Below are positions 17,062 through 25,792 of a stretch of DNA of 42,737 bases, piece by piece. The notes under the pieces are model-generated. The model saw only the letters and a program-made list of their open reading frames with translations. It was not told where the DNA came from and made no database searches. The stretch is from a virus, in the IMG/VR virus record IMGVR_UViG_3300034082_002367, positions 1-42,737 of that record. One strand, written 5' to 3'. The position numbers and the translations under genes are program-made. Each line of letters starts with the position of its first letter. Position 1 is the stretch's first letter.

Positions 17062-17547
17062 TTATGCCCAAGGGTTTATATTTATTCCAAGCTCTCTTAA
17101 AGTCTTCATAGCATCCTGTTCTTCAGCAGAAAGCGGGCTCATCTGACTTTCAGTCTTGATTTTTCCTTCCTCTTTAAGCCGATCAAAATGTCTAATCAAC
17201 GCAGTATCAGTTAGCACCCATCTGCCAATATCATTCCTTTTACAATATTGAGTAAGTATCCCAAGCCTTGATCTTCCCATTCCTTGTAAGAACGTTGCGT
17301 ATCTTCCTCTGTGCTCAGTCGCCTGATACTTTTCTCCTAAAACATCTTCGATCATGTATTTTAAAATATCGCTATACGACCTTCCGTGATCTTCTGAAGC
17401 ATATATGTATTTTAAGATTTTATATTTTAAAGTGTCTCCACTTATTCTTACTCGAGAAGGTCCAGTTAATCTAAAATCAACTGGATCAGTTTTGACCCAT
17501 TTCTCTTCTGATTCTGCTATAAACTGAGTAAAAGATCTGGCTTTCAT
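17062..17547 (-). CDS. Leader-bearing winged-helix-like protein
   Basis: 161 residues. The N-terminus MKARSFTQFIAES contains FTQFIAE, nearly identical to the T4 capsid-targeting YQEFIAE; cleavage is expected after Glu12. Residues 40-130 are helical and basic with RGRYATFLQGMGRSRLGIL and a terminal GRWVLTD that looks like the wing of a winged-helix DNA-binding fold. The tail is a short acidic helix. A DNA-binding protein packaged with the genome is a reasonable but unproven reading. A poorly spaced ATAAATAA (17553-17560) is just upstream. Confidence 0.65.
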   Translation of the reverse strand: MKARSFTQFIAESEEKWVKTDPVDFRLTGPSRVRISGDTLKYKILKYIYASEDHGRSYSDILKYMIEDVLGEKYQATEHRGRYATFLQGMGRSRLGILTQYCKRNDIGRWVLTDTALIRHFDRLKEEGKIKTESQMSPLSAEEQDAMKTLRELGININPWA

Positions 17548-18307: not shown

Positions 18308-18748
18308 TTATAATTCCGCTCTGCTGAATCCCATTTTACCTAGATCCATTGAATAGCTATCCTTCTTCTCTTTATTCATCGATCTAAGAGCACGCTGATT
18401 CTTTTTATTGGATCGGTCATCGTGCTTGTTTGCACGCTCAATGCTTTCTCTTGCCCATCCTCTGATATCTTGAACTTTCATCTTTTTCTTCCAATCACTA
18501 TGAAAGAGTAGATTAATCGCTCTAGCAATATCTACTTCTTGAACGTTTCCGATCTTAACACTTGAATCTGAATAACGATAAGGGTTTCTTGCCCGCTTTT
18601 CATTTGCCAATTCCTGTGCGATTGCAAGTATCTGGCTGTGAATGTTTGCAACTGCTCCTCTTACCATGCCTGCAAAATTAGTAGGATAAACCACTTTTTG
18701 CTCGGTCTCATTCAGAGAAAATTGATCATATGTAGATAAGTACTTCAA
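18308..18748 (-). CDS. Leader-bearing basic protein
   Basis: 146 residues. MKYLSTYDQFSLNE fits the leader with Tyr-x-x-Phe. The mature part is basic (many Arg and Lys, with RSNKKNQRALRSMNKEKKDS near the end) and helical, which suits a nucleic-acid-binding internal protein. It follows the coiled-coil gene by two bases. Function otherwise unknown. Confidence 0.6.
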   Translation of the reverse strand: MKYLSTYDQFSLNETEQKVVYPTNFAGMVRGAVANIHSQILAIAQELANEKRARNPYRYSDSSVKIGNVQEVDIARAINLLFHSDWKKKMKVQDIRGWARESIERANKHDDRSNKKNQRALRSMNKEKKDSYSMDLGKMGFSRAEL

Positions 18749-18750
18749 AA

Positions 18751-19071
18751 TTATTGTTCTTCCGCGGTTAAAGGCTCAGCCGTTTTTACTGCATTTTTAG
18801 CCTCTTCTTCCGCCTTTATTTGTTCTTCTTTGAGCTTAACTGCATTCTCAAGGGATATAACCTTAGTATTAAGTTCATTCTTTTTCTGAACAAGATCATT
18901 TTCCATCTTGTTGATAGAAGATCTTAAGAGTCTAATCTCATCTTGTTGATTCTTGAACTGAGGATCGTCGCCTCCTAAAGTTAGTCCAGTGTCTTGTTCT
19001 TCAATTTTTCGAGTCTTAACTGCTTTACCTGCATCATTGTTAAAACTCTTAAACGATTTAACGTATCCCAT
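18751..19071 (-). CDS. Leader-bearing coiled-coil protein
   Basis: 106 residues. VKSFKSFNND is a weaker leader in which an Asn/Asp pair replaces the usual Glu. Residues 35-95 form a long heptad coiled coil (IRLLRSSINKMENDLVQKK...). A short helical rod in a late operon of leader proteins could be prohead core material, by analogy to T4 core proteins. The gene overlaps its upstream neighbour by 14 bases. Confidence 0.55.
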   Translation of the reverse strand: MGYVKSFKSFNNDAGKAVKTRKIEEQDTGLTLGGDDPQFKNQQDEIRLLRSSINKMENDLVQKKNELNTKVISLENAVKLKEEQIKAEEEAKNAVKTAEPLTAEEQ

Positions 19072-19345
19072 TTTTCTTGGTTTTTTTCTTTTTATTAAAA
19101 TCTTTATATTTTAAAATAGATCTTTTTTTCTTTTTCTTCTCTTCAGGATTAGCTCCATAATATCCTCCAGACATAAACGGAGAATTGTTCCAATGCTTAG
19201 GAACAGATGATGCTCTTCCAGTATTGATCAGACTTGGGACCGGATTTGCAACGTCAGGCTCATTTAACTGCCCTACTGGCTTTCTAACGATTGTTATTGC
19301 GCCAAATGATTCGGTCACGAACTGATCAAAATTAAATAGATTCAT
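19058..19345 (-). CDS. Leader-bearing protein with very basic C-terminus
   Basis: 95 residues. MNLFNFDQFVTES is a very good leader match (FDQFVTE). The middle is Pro/Gly/Ser/Asn-rich without fold. The last 30 residues are almost a third Lys (EEKKKKKRS, KKKKTKK), giving a polycation that could neutralise packaged DNA, as small T4 internal proteins may do. A YYGANPEEK motif resembles the YGANPDEEE and FGANPYAEE strings in two other leader genes (690 and 1684). Confidence 0.6.
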   Translation of the reverse strand: MNLFNFDQFVTESFGAITIVRKPVGQLNEPDVANPVPSLINTGRASSVPKHWNNSPFMSGGYYGANPEEKKKKKRSILKYKDFNKKKKTKKNGIR

Positions 19346-19734
19346 TAGAAATTAAAATTTTCTAAATCGTCGTCTGTTGTAGAATCAGTTGACGCGAAAT
19401 CAACCGCTGGCATTTCTGAGTCTGCAGCTGCGGCCATTGAATTAGCTGCCTGGTCTTCTGGACTAATTTGAGTTGAGCTAGTTACTGTAGGTTCCATTGC
19501 TGTTCCAGTCGGAACGTCTGAAGCCGGTGCAACATATCCAGTTCCAGCTAAAACATCTCCCGTCACTTTAGTTAAAAGAGTTCCAAGACTTTCATAGTCA
19601 GTGCTACTCATTGAATCCATAGATTCCATCTTGTCTAAAAGATCACCAACCGTCATGCTTAAGAGTTCAGGTGGATAGTTATTCATCGTATCCTGCATCT
19701 CATATATTCTTCCAATCTTCTTAAAGTTTTTCAT
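19345..19734 (-). CDS. Leader-bearing acidic protein, first gene of a late operon
   Basis: 129 residues. MKNFKKIGRIYE fits the leader, although Phe and Ile/Tyr are spaced slightly differently. The rest is Ser/Thr/Ala-rich, acidic and probably disordered, ending DDDLENFNF. A small scaffold or core role is possible. A late-type promoter lies 16 bases upstream of its ATG, and the downstream gene overlaps its final base. Confidence 0.6.
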   Translation of the reverse strand: MKNFKKIGRIYEMQDTMNNYPPELLSMTVGDLLDKMESMDSMSSTDYESLGTLLTKVTGDVLAGTGYVAPASDVPTGTAMEPTVTSSTQISPEDQAANSMAAAADSEMPAVDFASTDSTTDDDLENFNF

Positions 19735-21147: not shown

Positions 21148-22023
21148 ATGGTACTAAAAAAAGGAAGCAAGGGTCCAGCTGTCGTAACCCTTCAAGAGTT
21201 TTTAAAAATCACAGCAGATGGGGATTTCGGTCCTAAAACTGAATCAGCAGTAAAAAGCTATCAGAAAAAACACGGTTTAACGGTAGATGGTGTGGTAGGT
21301 CCTAGAACATGGGCCCACATGGGAATACTAAACACTGACAATTCAGAAAACATTGAAGTTGGAAGTGCCCTTCAGATTAAAAAGCACTACATGCCTCCTG
21401 GAACCTATTTCGCAGGGCCTGTTAAAAAGCAATGGATCTTCTTACATCACACTGCAGGTTGGGAAAATCCTTATCAAGTAGCTGATATGTGGGCCAGAGA
21501 CAGTCGCGGTAATGTCGCTACTGAATTTATATTAGGAGGACCTTCAGTTAGAAACGGAGATACTAAATTCGACGGAGATCTGGTTCAATGTTTTCCAGAA
21601 GGAGGATACGGCTGGCATACTGGAACTGGAAACTCAGTAATGCATCGAAACTCAGTAGCAATCGAAGTCTGTAACATGGGTCAAATTGTTAACGGTAAGA
21701 CCTACGTAAACAGTCCAGCAGATCCTAATCAGGTAGTAAAATTAGCAAAGCCTTTCAGAGGATTCCAGTCTTGGCACCGATATTCAGACGAGCAGATCCG
21801 AGTTTTAAAGAATTGGATTCTATACTGTGCTAACAAGTACAACATCGATCCTAGAGTAGGTTTAATAGAATATGTAAGAGCTAAAGGTGCTGATGGTTTT
21901 GATGTATTGGATCTAGCTAGAGCTGAAAAAACTCCAGGAATGTATTCTCATACTAATGTTATCAGAGGTAAAGTGGATATGTTTCCTCAACAGGAGTTAA
22001 TCGATATGTTATTATCAATCTAA
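21148..22023 (+). CDS. Endolysin: N-acetylmuramoyl-L-alanine amidase with PG-binding domain
   Basis: 291 residues. Residues 4-58 are a peptidoglycan-binding module (LKKGSKGPAVVTLQEFL, DGDFGPKTESAVKSYQKKHG, DGVVGPRTW). Residues about 90-235 are an Amidase_2 (type 2 zinc amidase) domain: FLHHTAGW (zinc His at 100), GWHTGTGN and a late SWHRYSDEQ. The enzyme cuts the bond between MurNAc and the peptide stem and releases progeny from the Gram-negative host. No signal peptide, so a holin is expected elsewhere. The small secreted protein downstream may take part in lysis. Confidence 0.93.
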   Translation: MVLKKGSKGPAVVTLQEFLKITADGDFGPKTESAVKSYQKKHGLTVDGVVGPRTWAHMGILNTDNSENIEVGSALQIKKHYMPPGTYFAGPVKKQWIFLHHTAGWENPYQVADMWARDSRGNVATEFILGGPSVRNGDTKFDGDLVQCFPEGGYGWHTGTGNSVMHRNSVAIEVCNMGQIVNGKTYVNSPADPNQVVKLAKPFRGFQSWHRYSDEQIRVLKNWILYCANKYNIDPRVGLIEYVRAKGADGFDVLDLARAEKTPGMYSHTNVIRGKVDMFPQQELIDMLLSI

Positions 22024-22453: not shown

Positions 22454-23896
22454 TTAATTGATGATTCCCCTCTTTTTTGCTTGATTTTTTAAGAAAGATT
22501 TAACAGTTTTAGGTTCCTCCTTTTTAGGTTTTCCAGTTCTTTCTATTTGTGAATCTACACTTGGACCTGGATCCTCTTCTGTCTCACCTGATCCACGTTT
22601 GTTTTTTCCTTTTTTTCCAACCATCGTAAAGTCTGAAAAATCCTTAGTATCATCCGTCTTTTGAATTTTAGATTTATCTTCTTTCTTTTCTTCTTTAGGT
22701 TTCGGACTCTCTCCTAGTTTAATGCCATCACACATTGCAATGATTTTATCCAGTTCTGCGATTATTTCTCCAATCTTTTTCTTATCTATATCTAAAGCAG
22801 TCTTGAGCTTCCGATATTCGCTATTCTGTTTGCCTCCTTTGGTATTCGCTTTATAATATTGATTAGCGTATATTTTAGTATCGTTTCCATTTTCTGCGGT
22901 AGGATTTATTTTAGAATCTAAATATTTTCTCTTTACCTTCCAAAATTCTGTATACTTTAAATCACATGCAAGCTTATCTGGCATTTGTTCTAGAGTCTTG
23001 CTTAATCCTTCTACACTTTTGACTAGTCTCTTTTCAGAGAGTTCATTGTATTCCTTGATTAATTCTTCAATTGATAGTCTAATTGGTGCGATTCCACTTA
23101 TAATTTGATTGTATTCAGCTTCTCCAAATTTTTCAGATTTGGCAACTGATTTTCCGATTCCTTCGACATATCTTGAAATATCATTGATCCAATCCCTGGC
23201 CTTTTCTCCTTTATATGTTTTAGTTAACTTAACTTTATAGGAATTATCAGATAATTCAACTATTTTTACAGTTGGATATCCTGCTACATTGAAAGTCTTA
23301 GCAAATCCTTCGTATTCTTTTATCAAATCGATTTTAGATTTAGCAGCTTCATCTGACGGAATTGTTGCAACATACGGAATAACATCAACACCTACCCATT
23401 CTTTGAATTCTGGCGTTTTAAATAATTCGTTTTCCATCCTTTTACATGCTTCGCAAGAATCTCCAGATGTAAAATACGCTAATATAAATTTTTTCCTATC
23501 AACGGCCAGTTTCTGTTTGACTCCTGCCATGCTATCGTACCAGCCTAACCCAGATAAATTGCTAGGAACATTGCTCTGTCCTATCCCTTTAATTGGATCC
23601 GCCTCCTTTTTTTCAGTCTTTTTACTTATTTCATCTAAATAAACTTTACCGTATTGATTCCATGCCTTTTCAGTGTTTCCTCCTTTTGTCATTACTCCGT
23701 CTACTCCGTCCCCTTTAGGTCCGCTTTTCCCTAGTATTGTTGTATCGTTTTTAGTGTAGACTACCCAGGTTTGAAACGCCTTGATTTCGGCTGCAGTCTT
23801 AGGCGGATCTGCGCTTTCATAGATAGAATCGAATCCTGATTTTTTGGATTCATTTACTGATCTCCATTTATTGAAATTTAAAATAGGTCCTGGCAT
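22454..23896 (-). CDS. Leader-bearing protein with PG-binding-like and thioredoxin-like domains
   Basis: 480 residues. ILNFNKWRSVNES (residues 5-17) is a leader. Residues 41-88 hold the motif LGKSGPKGDGVDGV...TEKAWNQYG, resembling a peptidoglycan-binding-type repeat and shared with the gene at 24368. Residues about 125-235 look like a thioredoxin fold: SGDSCEACKRM supplies the CxxC (148-151) and NVAGYPTVKI the cis-proline strand (Pro208). The C-terminal 240 residues are Lys/Glu-rich helices. A redox-active or disulfide-handling protein packed in the capsid is the inference. Preceded by a late-type promoter. Confidence 0.7.
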   Translation of the reverse strand: MPGPILNFNKWRSVNESKKSGFDSIYESADPPKTAAEIKAFQTWVVYTKNDTTILGKSGPKGDGVDGVMTKGGNTEKAWNQYGKVYLDEISKKTEKKEADPIKGIGQSNVPSNLSGLGWYDSMAGVKQKLAVDRKKFILAYFTSGDSCEACKRMENELFKTPEFKEWVGVDVIPYVATIPSDEAAKSKIDLIKEYEGFAKTFNVAGYPTVKIVELSDNSYKVKLTKTYKGEKARDWINDISRYVEGIGKSVAKSEKFGEAEYNQIISGIAPIRLSIEELIKEYNELSEKRLVKSVEGLSKTLEQMPDKLACDLKYTEFWKVKRKYLDSKINPTAENGNDTKIYANQYYKANTKGGKQNSEYRKLKTALDIDKKKIGEIIAELDKIIAMCDGIKLGESPKPKEEKKEDKSKIQKTDDTKDFSDFTMVGKKGKNKRGSGETEEDPGPSVDSQIERTGKPKKEEPKTVKSFLKNQAKKRGIIN

Positions 23897-23917
23897 GCTT
23901 TGGATTAATATATAGGA

Positions 23918-23925
23918 TTATTTAT
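23918..23925 (-). promoter_or_regulatory. Late-type promoter ATAAATAA
   Basis: ATAAATAA on the minus strand, 21 bases before the ATG at 23896. It overlaps the stop codon of the small membrane gene upstream. Confidence 0.6.
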
Positions 23926-24107
23926 CTCTCTAATTGTTCAGAATCTACCAATTCTAAGCATAAATTCCAGAGTAGCCAAATAATTTCTAATGAAACCACT
24001 CCTAAAATTAAGTATCTAATTGTTTCATTGAACCAAATCATCCAGACCATTCCTAAAATGACAGAGATCATAAACATCATTAAGGTTGCGGCTTTTAAAA
24101 TCTTCAT
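23922..24107 (-). CDS. Small two-helix membrane protein
   Basis: 61 residues with two hydrophobic segments, about residues 5-26 (AATLMMFMISVILGMVWMIW) and 31-52 (RYLILGVVSLEIIWLLWNL), and a charged tail. Overlaps the upstream gene by ATGA, so the two are co-translated. Holin-like size and layout, though no direct evidence of lysis function and it is not next to the endolysin. Confidence 0.6.
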   Translation of the reverse strand: MKILKAATLMMFMISVILGMVWMIWFNETIRYLILGVVSLEIIWLLWNLCLELVDSEQLER

Positions 24108-24346
24108 CCTTTAAATTTTTTATTAAAGTGATCCCAAACCTCTTCTTCAGTCCAGTACCAATGCATTCGGGATTGAGCTATGCCTGTAGTAATCTTCCAA
24201 ATATTAGAGCATCTTAAACTAAAAGTTGATCCTAACTCAGATCCATTCTTTGAAAGGAGAAATTTTAAAAACCAAAAGGGCCTCATCAGATACCATCTGT
24301 ATCTGATCATCTTGATCCATCTACTTGATTCTTGAAATCTCTTCAT
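24104..24346 (-). CDS. Small basic aromatic protein
   Basis: 80 residues from the ATG at 24346. It is rich in Trp, Tyr, Arg and Phe (RYRWYLMRPFWFLKFLL), and may sit on or in the membrane, fitting its coupling to the two-helix protein. Its ATG is preceded by GTATATT and five bases. No family recognised. Confidence 0.5.
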   Translation of the reverse strand: MKRFQESSRWIKMIRYRWYLMRPFWFLKFLLSKNGSELGSTFSLRCSNIWKITTGIAQSRMHWYWTEEEVWDHFNKKFKG

Positions 24347-24351
24347 ATACA

Positions 24352-24358
24352 AATATAC
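24352..24358 (-). promoter_or_regulatory. Early-type promoter GTATATT, leaderless spacing
   Basis: GTATATT on the minus strand, five bases before the ATG at 24346. This is the same spacing as at 4306, 20366 and 36638 and favours 24346 over the TTG at 24352 as start. Confidence 0.45.
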
Positions 24359-24367
24359 TCTAAAAGT

Positions 24368-25792
24368 TTAAGCCAACTGATCTAGTCCAGAAAAACCTTG
24401 AGTTTTAGATCTTTCACGTTTAGCGTACTCGTCTGGAAACTTTTCTCTGGCTGGCATGTCCGCATATACCGGAATGAAATATCTATGAAAATTAATTAGG
24501 CCGCCAGTCCAACCTCTTCCATAAGTTGCAGCATTTTTATAAGAAAGATAAAGTTTTACTTGTTCAACCAGCATGATCTCAGTTACTATCTTATCCCCTA
24601 TCTTTTGAATTGCGTCGTCCAGCCCTGAATATCCCAATCCATTGAGTGCGTTTATAGTGTTAGCAATTGTTTTTTCTGCATGTGTAGGCGATCCCCATGA
24701 CGCCGTTCCTATGCAATGATTCACTAAAGTACTTAGTGTTTCCCTTCCCGCATCTCTTACCGTCTTATTATAAAATGTAAGTTCATATACTCTTTTGGCG
24801 TATTCGTCCTTCATTTCAAAAAATCCCTTTGCTACTTCTAATGGATTGCTTATTCCCATATCAGCAGCTGCGGCTTTCCAAGTTGGCCAGATAACTCCTC
24901 TAGATGTGTGCCATCTATTGGACTTAGTGGTTCCAGTTGTCAAGCTTTTACTGTTCTGTAAATGAGGATTGATACTTAACTGGTACGTCATCCCGTTATA
25001 GGTTAACTTTCCAGTTGCAGAATCAAATTCATAGGGACATGCAAGAGCTGCGGGTCCAGTATCCCGAGGATCGTCTGATAGTCCTCCCTCTTTTATACTA
25101 TTAAATTTATACATATCCTCTAAAATATCTCCAGTTAAATTCATTTTTCCTTCAGCATTGTAATCTCTTCCTCCACCTTCAACCCATTGTTGTTCATAAT
25201 AGGGACGCATTAATCCAGTGTCAATATAGTCTTTTAACTCGGGTTTTTTAGCCAGTATCGCTTGATCCCTCTCAGTTATTAAACTTTTATTAAAACCAGG
25301 CGCCAAAACCTCTTCTCGATTTACCCAGCTTTTAACAAAAGTGGTCATTGATTCCGGGTTTGAAAAATCGATCTGATCTAATCCGCATAGGGACATTAGA
25401 GCTGCTTCAGTTTCCCCATTAAAATAACAAGTGACTCCGTCTCCAAGCGGTCCTGCTTTAGATTTTAGAACCCCTAACTTCTTTAAAAGGGTTTGAAGAT
25501 GAGCGTTACCTCTTAAGTTAATCACATTTTTACCTAGATTAAATCCACCTGCTGCTTCTTTAAGATCTTTGATGACCCTATTTGATCGGATCTGTTCATC
25601 ATCTTGTACTGCTTTATTCATCAAATTCTTTCCTTGATCCTGTGCCCATTTATTAAGTTCAGCTCGAGATTTTTCTTCAGGAGACATCTTATCAACTGGA
25701 GATTGAGATGTTGGCAGGATTACATTTTCGCCTGGATCCCCTTCAGCTTCGTTTAATTTAAACCAGTGTTTGAAATTTAAAATGTGAGACAT
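24368..25792 (-). CDS. Leader-bearing muramidase-like protein (GH108-type)
   Basis: 474 residues. ILNFKHWFKLNE (residues 4-15) is a leader. Residues 98-135 hold LQTLLKKLGVLKSKAGPLGDGV, a peptidoglycan-binding-like module shared with the gene at 22454. From residue 235, EGGLSDDPRDTGPAAL matches the GH108 start (EGGY-x-x-x-P-x-D-x-G), with the catalytic Glu at 235; the later TLVNHCIGTASWG and GRGWTGGLINFHRY correspond to the second half and the C-terminal PG-binding block. GGxTxxG of typical GH108 is altered to GPAALAC, so activity must be confirmed. A lysozyme carried in the capsid would suit entry or lysis. Late-type promoter upstream. Confidence 0.7.
   Translation of the reverse strand: MSHILNFKHWFKLNEAEGDPGENVILPTSQSPVDKMSPEEKSRAELNKWAQDQGKNLMNKAVQDDEQIRSNRVIKDLKEAAGGFNLGKNVINLRGNAHLQTLLKKLGVLKSKAGPLGDGVTCYFNGETEAALMSLCGLDQIDFSNPESMTTFVKSWVNREEVLAPGFNKSLITERDQAILAKKPELKDYIDTGLMRPYYEQQWVEGGGRDYNAEGKMNLTGDILEDMYKFNSIKEGGLSDDPRDTGPAALACPYEFDSATGKLTYNGMTYQLSINPHLQNSKSLTTGTTKSNRWHTSRGVIWPTWKAAAADMGISNPLEVAKGFFEMKDEYAKRVYELTFYNKTVRDAGRETLSTLVNHCIGTASWGSPTHAEKTIANTINALNGLGYSGLDDAIQKIGDKIVTEIMLVEQVKLYLSYKNAATYGRGWTGGLINFHRYFIPVYADMPAREKFPDEYAKRERSKTQGFSGLDQLA

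Follow-up and report, generated by a model that had tools for sequence, protein, structure and literature searches.

Two leader-bearing proteins, one thioredoxin-like and one muramidase-like, as candidate capsid cargo of a probable T4-like huge phage

Why would a phage place a thioredoxin-like protein and a muramidase-like protein behind similar short N-terminal leaders? The question is raised by two nearby genes in a 42,737-base fragment of a virus record (IMG/VR record IMGVR_UViG_3300034082_002367, positions 1 to 42,737; referred to here as the window). Both genes lie inside the window as intact minus-strand open reading frames (ORFs), at exactly 22454-23896 and 24368-25792. The former encodes a thioredoxin-like protein (480 amino acids [aa]) consisting of a leader, a module containing the motif GPxGDGV, a DsbH/Thioredoxin_2-like domain with a CEAC motif, and a helical, lysine-rich C-terminal half. 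The latter encodes a muramidase-like protein (474 aa) with a leader, a GPxGDGV module, a GH108-like domain, and a C-terminal helical region. A sequence-only reading of the window had regarded the two proteins as capsid cargo that could help DNA or proteins to pass the host envelope. We lean slightly toward a similar answer, namely, that both are capsid-targeted cargo that is ejected with the DNA and acts on the host wall and periplasm; we infer packaging, cleavage, ejection, activity, and binding from the features described below.

The N-terminal leader and its clade

Similar leaders open the two proteins (MPGPILNFNKWRSVNES and MSHILNFKHWFKLNEAE). The predicted capsid-targeting peptide of the thioredoxin-like protein is MPGPILNFNKWRSVNE (residues 1-16; 23849..23896, minus strand), with a predicted cut after E16, and that of the muramidase-like protein is MSHILNFKHWFKLNE (residues 1-15; 25748..25792, minus strand), with a predicted cut after E15; both follow a T4-type pattern. 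A strict leader pattern (M, 1 to 12 residues, and then F/Y/L-xx-F/W-x(0-2)-L/I/V-x-E) was drawn up on this clade and counted in the window and four large relatives (1066 ORFs). It was present in 83 ORFs, an approximately 15-fold enrichment, with expectations of 5.4 from shuffled N termini (mean of 200 shuffles; maximum, 11) and 6.0 from internal segments. The leader glutamate sits at residues 10-22, and no hydrophobic run exceeds 4 residues. A Sec signal peptide was therefore rejected as the meaning of the leader, given that there is no hydrophobic core.

Because the pattern had been made by looking at this clade, it was also tested outside the clade. Four T4 proteins matched (1.3 expected): two internal proteins already known to be targeted to the capsid (IpII and IpIII), gp5, and one further protein. 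The leader was also found in stretches of two huge phages of 462 kb and 735 kb (L171 and L172 from LR756500; L174 from LR756501), where 4, 4, and 7 ORFs matched versus 0.26, 0.38, and 0.24 expected; therefore, huge T4-like phages may use this sorting tag in general. No leader was detected in Lak-A2 (one 49-kb stretch, with TAG read as glutamine).

The capsid-targeting propeptides of T4 are 10-20 residues long (PMC5694885) and are taken off by the prohead protease (PMC5694885; PMC3012670). Like the T4 internal proteins (IpI, IpII, IpIII, and Alt), the proteins described here begin with a short aromatic leader that ends in L/I/V-x-E, and one common leader precedes a very diverse cargo (PMC3012670). 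Unlike in T4, the longer form F-xx-W-xx-L-x-E is common, and approximately 13-23 pattern matches occur per large genome, compared with a few in T4. There is, judging from the sequences, a strong case that the leaders work like the T4 capsid-targeting propeptides. Our literature search found no virion proteome with cleavage sites for a Bacteroidota jumbo phage.

The corresponding T4-type head genes are present in relatives. A 176-kb relative (G001) encodes a prohead protease (Peptidase_S77, gp21; PF03420, above the cut-off) and a major capsid protein (gp23; PF07068), and genes of both types are also present in a second relative (G002). On the basis of the capsid protein, the G001 clade comprises 126 loci in IMG/VR, on contigs of up to 271 kb. 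The nearest named records were huge phages of 462-735 kb and Prevotella Lak phages (approximately 30-37% identity). Given these records and the protease and capsid genes of G001, the window belongs to a T4-like huge-phage group, probably with Bacteroidota hosts.

The GPxGDGV module and the enzyme-like domains

The GPxGDGV segment, which had been described as a peptidoglycan-binding-like repeat common to the two proteins, is present in both, as SGPKGDGV (residues 58-65) in the thioredoxin-like protein and as AGPLGDGV (residues 113-120) in the muramidase-like protein. The surrounding modules span residues 34-92 (23621..23797, minus strand; PG_binding_1-like) and residues 89-146 (25355..25528, minus strand), respectively. 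The segment is nearly exclusive to these proteins: among the 1066 ORFs (285,070 residues), GPxGDGV occurred only in these two and in an orthologue of the second, with approximately 0.01 occurrences expected by chance. The region is the most conserved part of the muramidase-like protein (80% identity with the L005 orthologue, compared with 39% for the preceding stretch). In the thioredoxin-like protein, the leading 84 alignment columns are 86-100% identical to a homologue on contig L003 (residues 1-17, which include the leader, are identical), while the remainder is 31-49% identical (approximately 40% for the body and 48% over the whole protein). Thus, the leader and the module have been held while the body diverged.

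Neither of the two proteins matched PG_binding_1 (PF01471) above the cut-off in a profile scan. A profile of the GPxGDGV segment of the thioredoxin-like protein found L113:12605 (E value, 3.8e-4), which is itself PG_binding_1 above the cut-off (33.1 bits), and this segment is therefore one step from PG_binding_1. The bridging gene (L113:12605-13318 in G005) encodes a DUF2589 protein without a leader and with the PG_binding_1 repeat inside. Aligned directly by hhalign, the two GPxGDGV segments gave a weak match (E value, 0.0016; probability, 16%). A PG_binding_1 profile built from three leaderless endolysins had leader proteins as its next hits (E values, 2e-10, 1.3e-5, 1.1e-4, and 5e-3). We set aside a seven-segment module profile as circular, its segments having been chosen by eye, and used these one-sided profiles instead. 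Because the thioredoxin segment links to PG_binding_1 and, weakly, to the muramidase-like segment, the module is likely common to both proteins, and it is probably a degenerate helical module with putative peptidoglycan binding. The proposed likeness to a peptidoglycan-binding repeat holds for the thioredoxin-like protein, via the bridging gene, and only weakly for the muramidase-like protein.

The thioredoxin-like domain was borne out by the profile scan: Thioredoxin_2 (PF13098) matched residues 134-213 (23258..23497, minus strand) with 36.6 bits against a cut-off of 27, and CEAC (residues 148-151) lies inside the match. The L003 homologue scored 23.3 bits in the protein scan and 27.7 bits in the genome scan, and it keeps the CxxC motif as CPTC (two distinct sequences only). 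The best solved relative, and the only convincing match in the PDB, was 2JU5 (annotated as Thioredoxin Disulfide Isomerase), with E values of 0.012 for the single sequence and 0.0017 for the profile. The best NCBIfam model was DsbH (NF043050), with 30.8 bits; this is below the equivalog cut-off of 190 and thus indicates a distant relative only. Separate short thioredoxin-type ORFs occur in G005 and G007 (that of G005 contains WCGPC and lacks a leader), and T4 itself encodes the thioredoxin NrdC and the glutaredoxin NrdH. The leader-tagged protein differs in type from these and, by similarity, is nearer to Dsb-like proteins. It shares a thioredoxin-type domain with CxxC with DsbH (2JU5) and the Thioredoxin_2 family; unlike them, it lacks a Sec signal, and its thioredoxin domain is fused C-terminally to a capsid-type leader and a PG_binding-like module.

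The GH108-like region of the second protein covers residues 234-347 (24752..25093, minus strand) and contains the invariant residues K234-E235-G236-G237-L238, D240, D241, D244, and G246. We take EGG with the catalytic glutamate, followed by D-x-x-D, to be the motif of the GH108 family. The L003 and L005 orthologues are 90% and 68% identical to the window protein, and L004 and L005 are identical across the compared stretch; apart from a near-identical contig, only three other viral contigs contained relatives of the protein. Neither protein had a distant relative in 50,697 phage records searched by tblastn, in a genome-contig scan, or in further viral scans, and the full-length profiles had no match in 30 clade records. 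The second protein is probably, not certainly, a muramidase.

Two small genes separate the pair, both of which had been called membrane genes. The 61-aa protein (23922..24107, minus strand) is clearly membrane-like; the 82-aa ORF (24104..24352, minus strand), which has a TTG start and is kept in L003, is not clearly so. Elsewhere in the window, several small leader or leader-like proteins (17062-17547 and 18308-19734) lie amid gp25-like and head-tail connector genes, and orthologues of one of these (18308-18748) are present in G001 and G004.

Proteins carried behind the leader in related phages

Family scans of the 83 leader proteins revealed cell-wall domains. Phage_lysozyme2 (79 bits) was found in a G001 protein that also has PHROG matches to tape-measure proteins, PG_binding_1 (62 bits) together with an EGGY muramidase-like domain in a G004 protein, CHAP in G007, and a GH24 lysozyme in G005. 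Outside the strict pattern, G007 has VanY (49.7 bits) and a GH19-like part behind a leader-like start, and in the G005 homologue of this protein, the leader starts from a later ATG. G001, G004, G005, and G007 encode small PG_binding_1 proteins that open with a leader or a leader-like sequence, and G013 encodes one of 518 aa. For an unbiased set, three families (PF01471, PF05257, and PF00959) were searched genome-wide in five records. Of the 11 proteins obtained, 5 had the strict leader (hypergeometric p = 8e-4), 2 had a variant, and 3 were leaderless endolysins; a Fisher test on hand-picked cell-wall proteins (p = 7e-6) was set aside as biased. The clade's PG_binding_1 endolysins lack the leader, including that of the window (21148..22023, plus strand; PG_binding_1, 57.8 bits; Amidase_2, 41.4 bits), which is the ordinary lysis enzyme of the window and serves as a contrast case.

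The scans also yielded several further observations. A gene pair is conserved, in which a small leader-like PG_binding_1 protein is followed by a VanY and GH19-like enzyme with a leader (L127:4758-5132 with L127:5125-6372 in G007; L114:351-716 with the ORF starting at L114:673 in G005). The G001 leader protein at L016:8632-9975 has M15 peptidase-like motifs and an EGGY muramidase-like domain, with no Pfam match. Three leader proteins matched NUDIX hydrolases in the family scan, with loci assigned by looking at the sequences (L016:8117-8611 in G001, L123:10051-10542 in G004, and L101:3515-3985 in G005), and two of these directly adjoin a leader-tagged muramidase-like protein (L016:8632-9975 and L123:10558-11823, respectively). 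If they are head cargo, the NUDIX proteins could destroy nucleotide signals of host defense on entry.

The tail hub of these phages has a bearing on where a virion lysin might reside. The gp5-like hub is 226-266 aa long in four records. The G001 hub matches only the first 100 of 868 positions of the hub-and-lysozyme family and has an OB domain only according to Pfam (the sole copy scanned). Ten other large G001 proteins, mostly candidate structural proteins, contain no peptidoglycan hydrolase by Pfam. Consequently, the leader proteins appear to be the obvious virion lysins, although divergent tail enzymes can be missed by such scans.

Head cargo, its alternatives, and possible consequences

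If both proteins are capsid-targeted cargo, the following course can be envisaged. The leader (residues 1-15/16) would work as a T4-like capsid-targeting sequence, folding into a short amphipathic helix that would dock into the core of the scaffold. A gp21-type protease would cut after the glutamate of L/I/V-x-E, and the mature protein would stay among the packaged DNA. At infection, the mature proteins would leave through the tail together with the DNA; the muramidase-like protein would cut peptidoglycan, the substrates of the DsbH-like thioredoxin would be periplasmic disulfides or co-ejected proteins, and the GPxGDGV module would hold both proteins at the wall. Of these steps, the weakest is that the thioredoxin acts on disulfides, whether these belong to the host envelope or to co-ejected proteins. 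In related phages, the role may be shared among leader-tagged GH24, CHAP, VanY with a GH19-like part, and tail-lysozyme-type enzymes. Regarding the two parts of the earlier proposal, capsid cargo is well, although indirectly, supported by the fit of the leader to the T4 capsid-targeting pattern and by the T4-type protease and capsid genes of a relative. Help in passing the envelope is suggested more strongly than before by the leader-tagged wall hydrolases of relatives and by the gp5-like hub without a lysozyme domain.

Several observations weigh against this account. The prohead protease was found in relatives and not in the 42.7-kb window fragment. Some leader matches are due to chance; among them are those of RecA-like and DNA-ligase orthologues, which were judged so because they are replication proteins (the excess remains large without them). 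The T4 tail lysozyme gp5 (77959-79686), which to our knowledge carries no targeting leader, also matches, so the pattern is slightly weakened. Only the window lineage and one close relative are known to have the thioredoxin gene; it is absent from G001, a record that may be incomplete. A profile from the GPxGDGV segment of the muramidase-like protein alone finds no endolysin modules. AlphaFold models of the two proteins had mean confidence (pLDDT) values of 33.4 and 35.0 and supported no fold (2-3 aligned sequences). Finally, GH108 (PF05838) scored below its threshold of 21.2 bits in all three homologues of the muramidase-like protein (13.8, 13.8, and 17.6 bits), and no solved structure in the PDB and no annotated phage protein matched it.

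These GH108 scores, together with the lack of support in NCBIfam, would fit a structural cargo protein whose EGG motif and weak GH108 match are coincidental. We consider this somewhat doubtful, given that the same alignment was obtained from all three homologues with E235, G236, G237, D240, D241, D244, and G246 invariant, that an insertion of approximately 45 residues may explain the low score, and that a similarly arranged EGGY domain occurs in two further leader proteins. The GH108-like muramidase domain of the sequence-only reading accordingly stays plausible, with a match under the cut-off. A different possibility is that the proteins are carried in the head without acting on the wall at entry: GPxGDGV would then be a structural or scaffold-binding module resembling PG_binding_1 by chance, and the thioredoxin would serve virion disulfides, host takeover, or counter-defense. 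The module of the muramidase-like protein indeed has no direct profile link to PG_binding_1, NUDIX enzymes are among the leader proteins, and IPI*, which T4 carries in its head, counters a restriction enzyme within the cell (PMC3012670). However, many leader proteins bear unambiguous cell-wall hydrolase or PG_binding_1 domains, and leader proteins are the next best hits of the profile built from leaderless endolysins, which makes this possibility an unlikely one. Sorting to the tail, the baseplate, or another late assembly site, with the hydrolases as ordinary tail-associated lysins, would suit both the position of the window's leader genes beside gp25-like and head-tail connector genes and the leader protein that combines Phage_lysozyme2, a type usual in tail proteins, with tape-measure matches. 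Such a destination is improbable because the pattern matches the T4 head cargo IpII and IpIII and ends in L/I/V-x-E, a relative has T4-type protease and capsid genes, and the leader proteins include NUDIX and other non-tail enzymes.

Capsid-targeted cargo acting at the wall would combine traits of known systems. The T4 internal proteins share this type of leader; unlike theirs, the cargo here includes cell-wall hydrolases, peptidoglycan-binding modules, and a Dsb-like thioredoxin. As with the T4 tail lysozyme gp5, a cell-wall lysozyme would be brought by a T4-like virion; unlike gp5, the hub here is short, with OB only where scanned, and the enzymes are separate leader-tagged proteins. We know of no cleaved leader in T7 gp16. 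This podovirus inner-core protein is the standard capsid-inner lysin, which is stored in the head, is ejected at infection, and cuts peptidoglycan (PMC6116005); the present case differs in that it concerns a T4-like phage with a contractile tail and several unrelated hydrolase families. Leader-sorted capsid lysins of several hydrolase families in T4-like phages were not found described in the literature that we searched.

We tentatively raise the possibility that, in a widespread group of huge T4-like phages, wall penetration has passed from a tail-tip lysozyme to the head, via leader-sorted hydrolases and wall-binding proteins, joined here by an envelope-type disulfide enzyme, all ejected with the genome. 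Such head cargo would explain how contractile-tail phages whose gp5-like hub is without a lysozyme domain pass the peptidoglycan. Hundreds of huge-phage proteins have no known role, and a leader readable from sequence would show which of them travel in the head. In this way, what uncultured phages carry, entry enzymes and possible counter-defense enzymes among it, would become predictable and testable.

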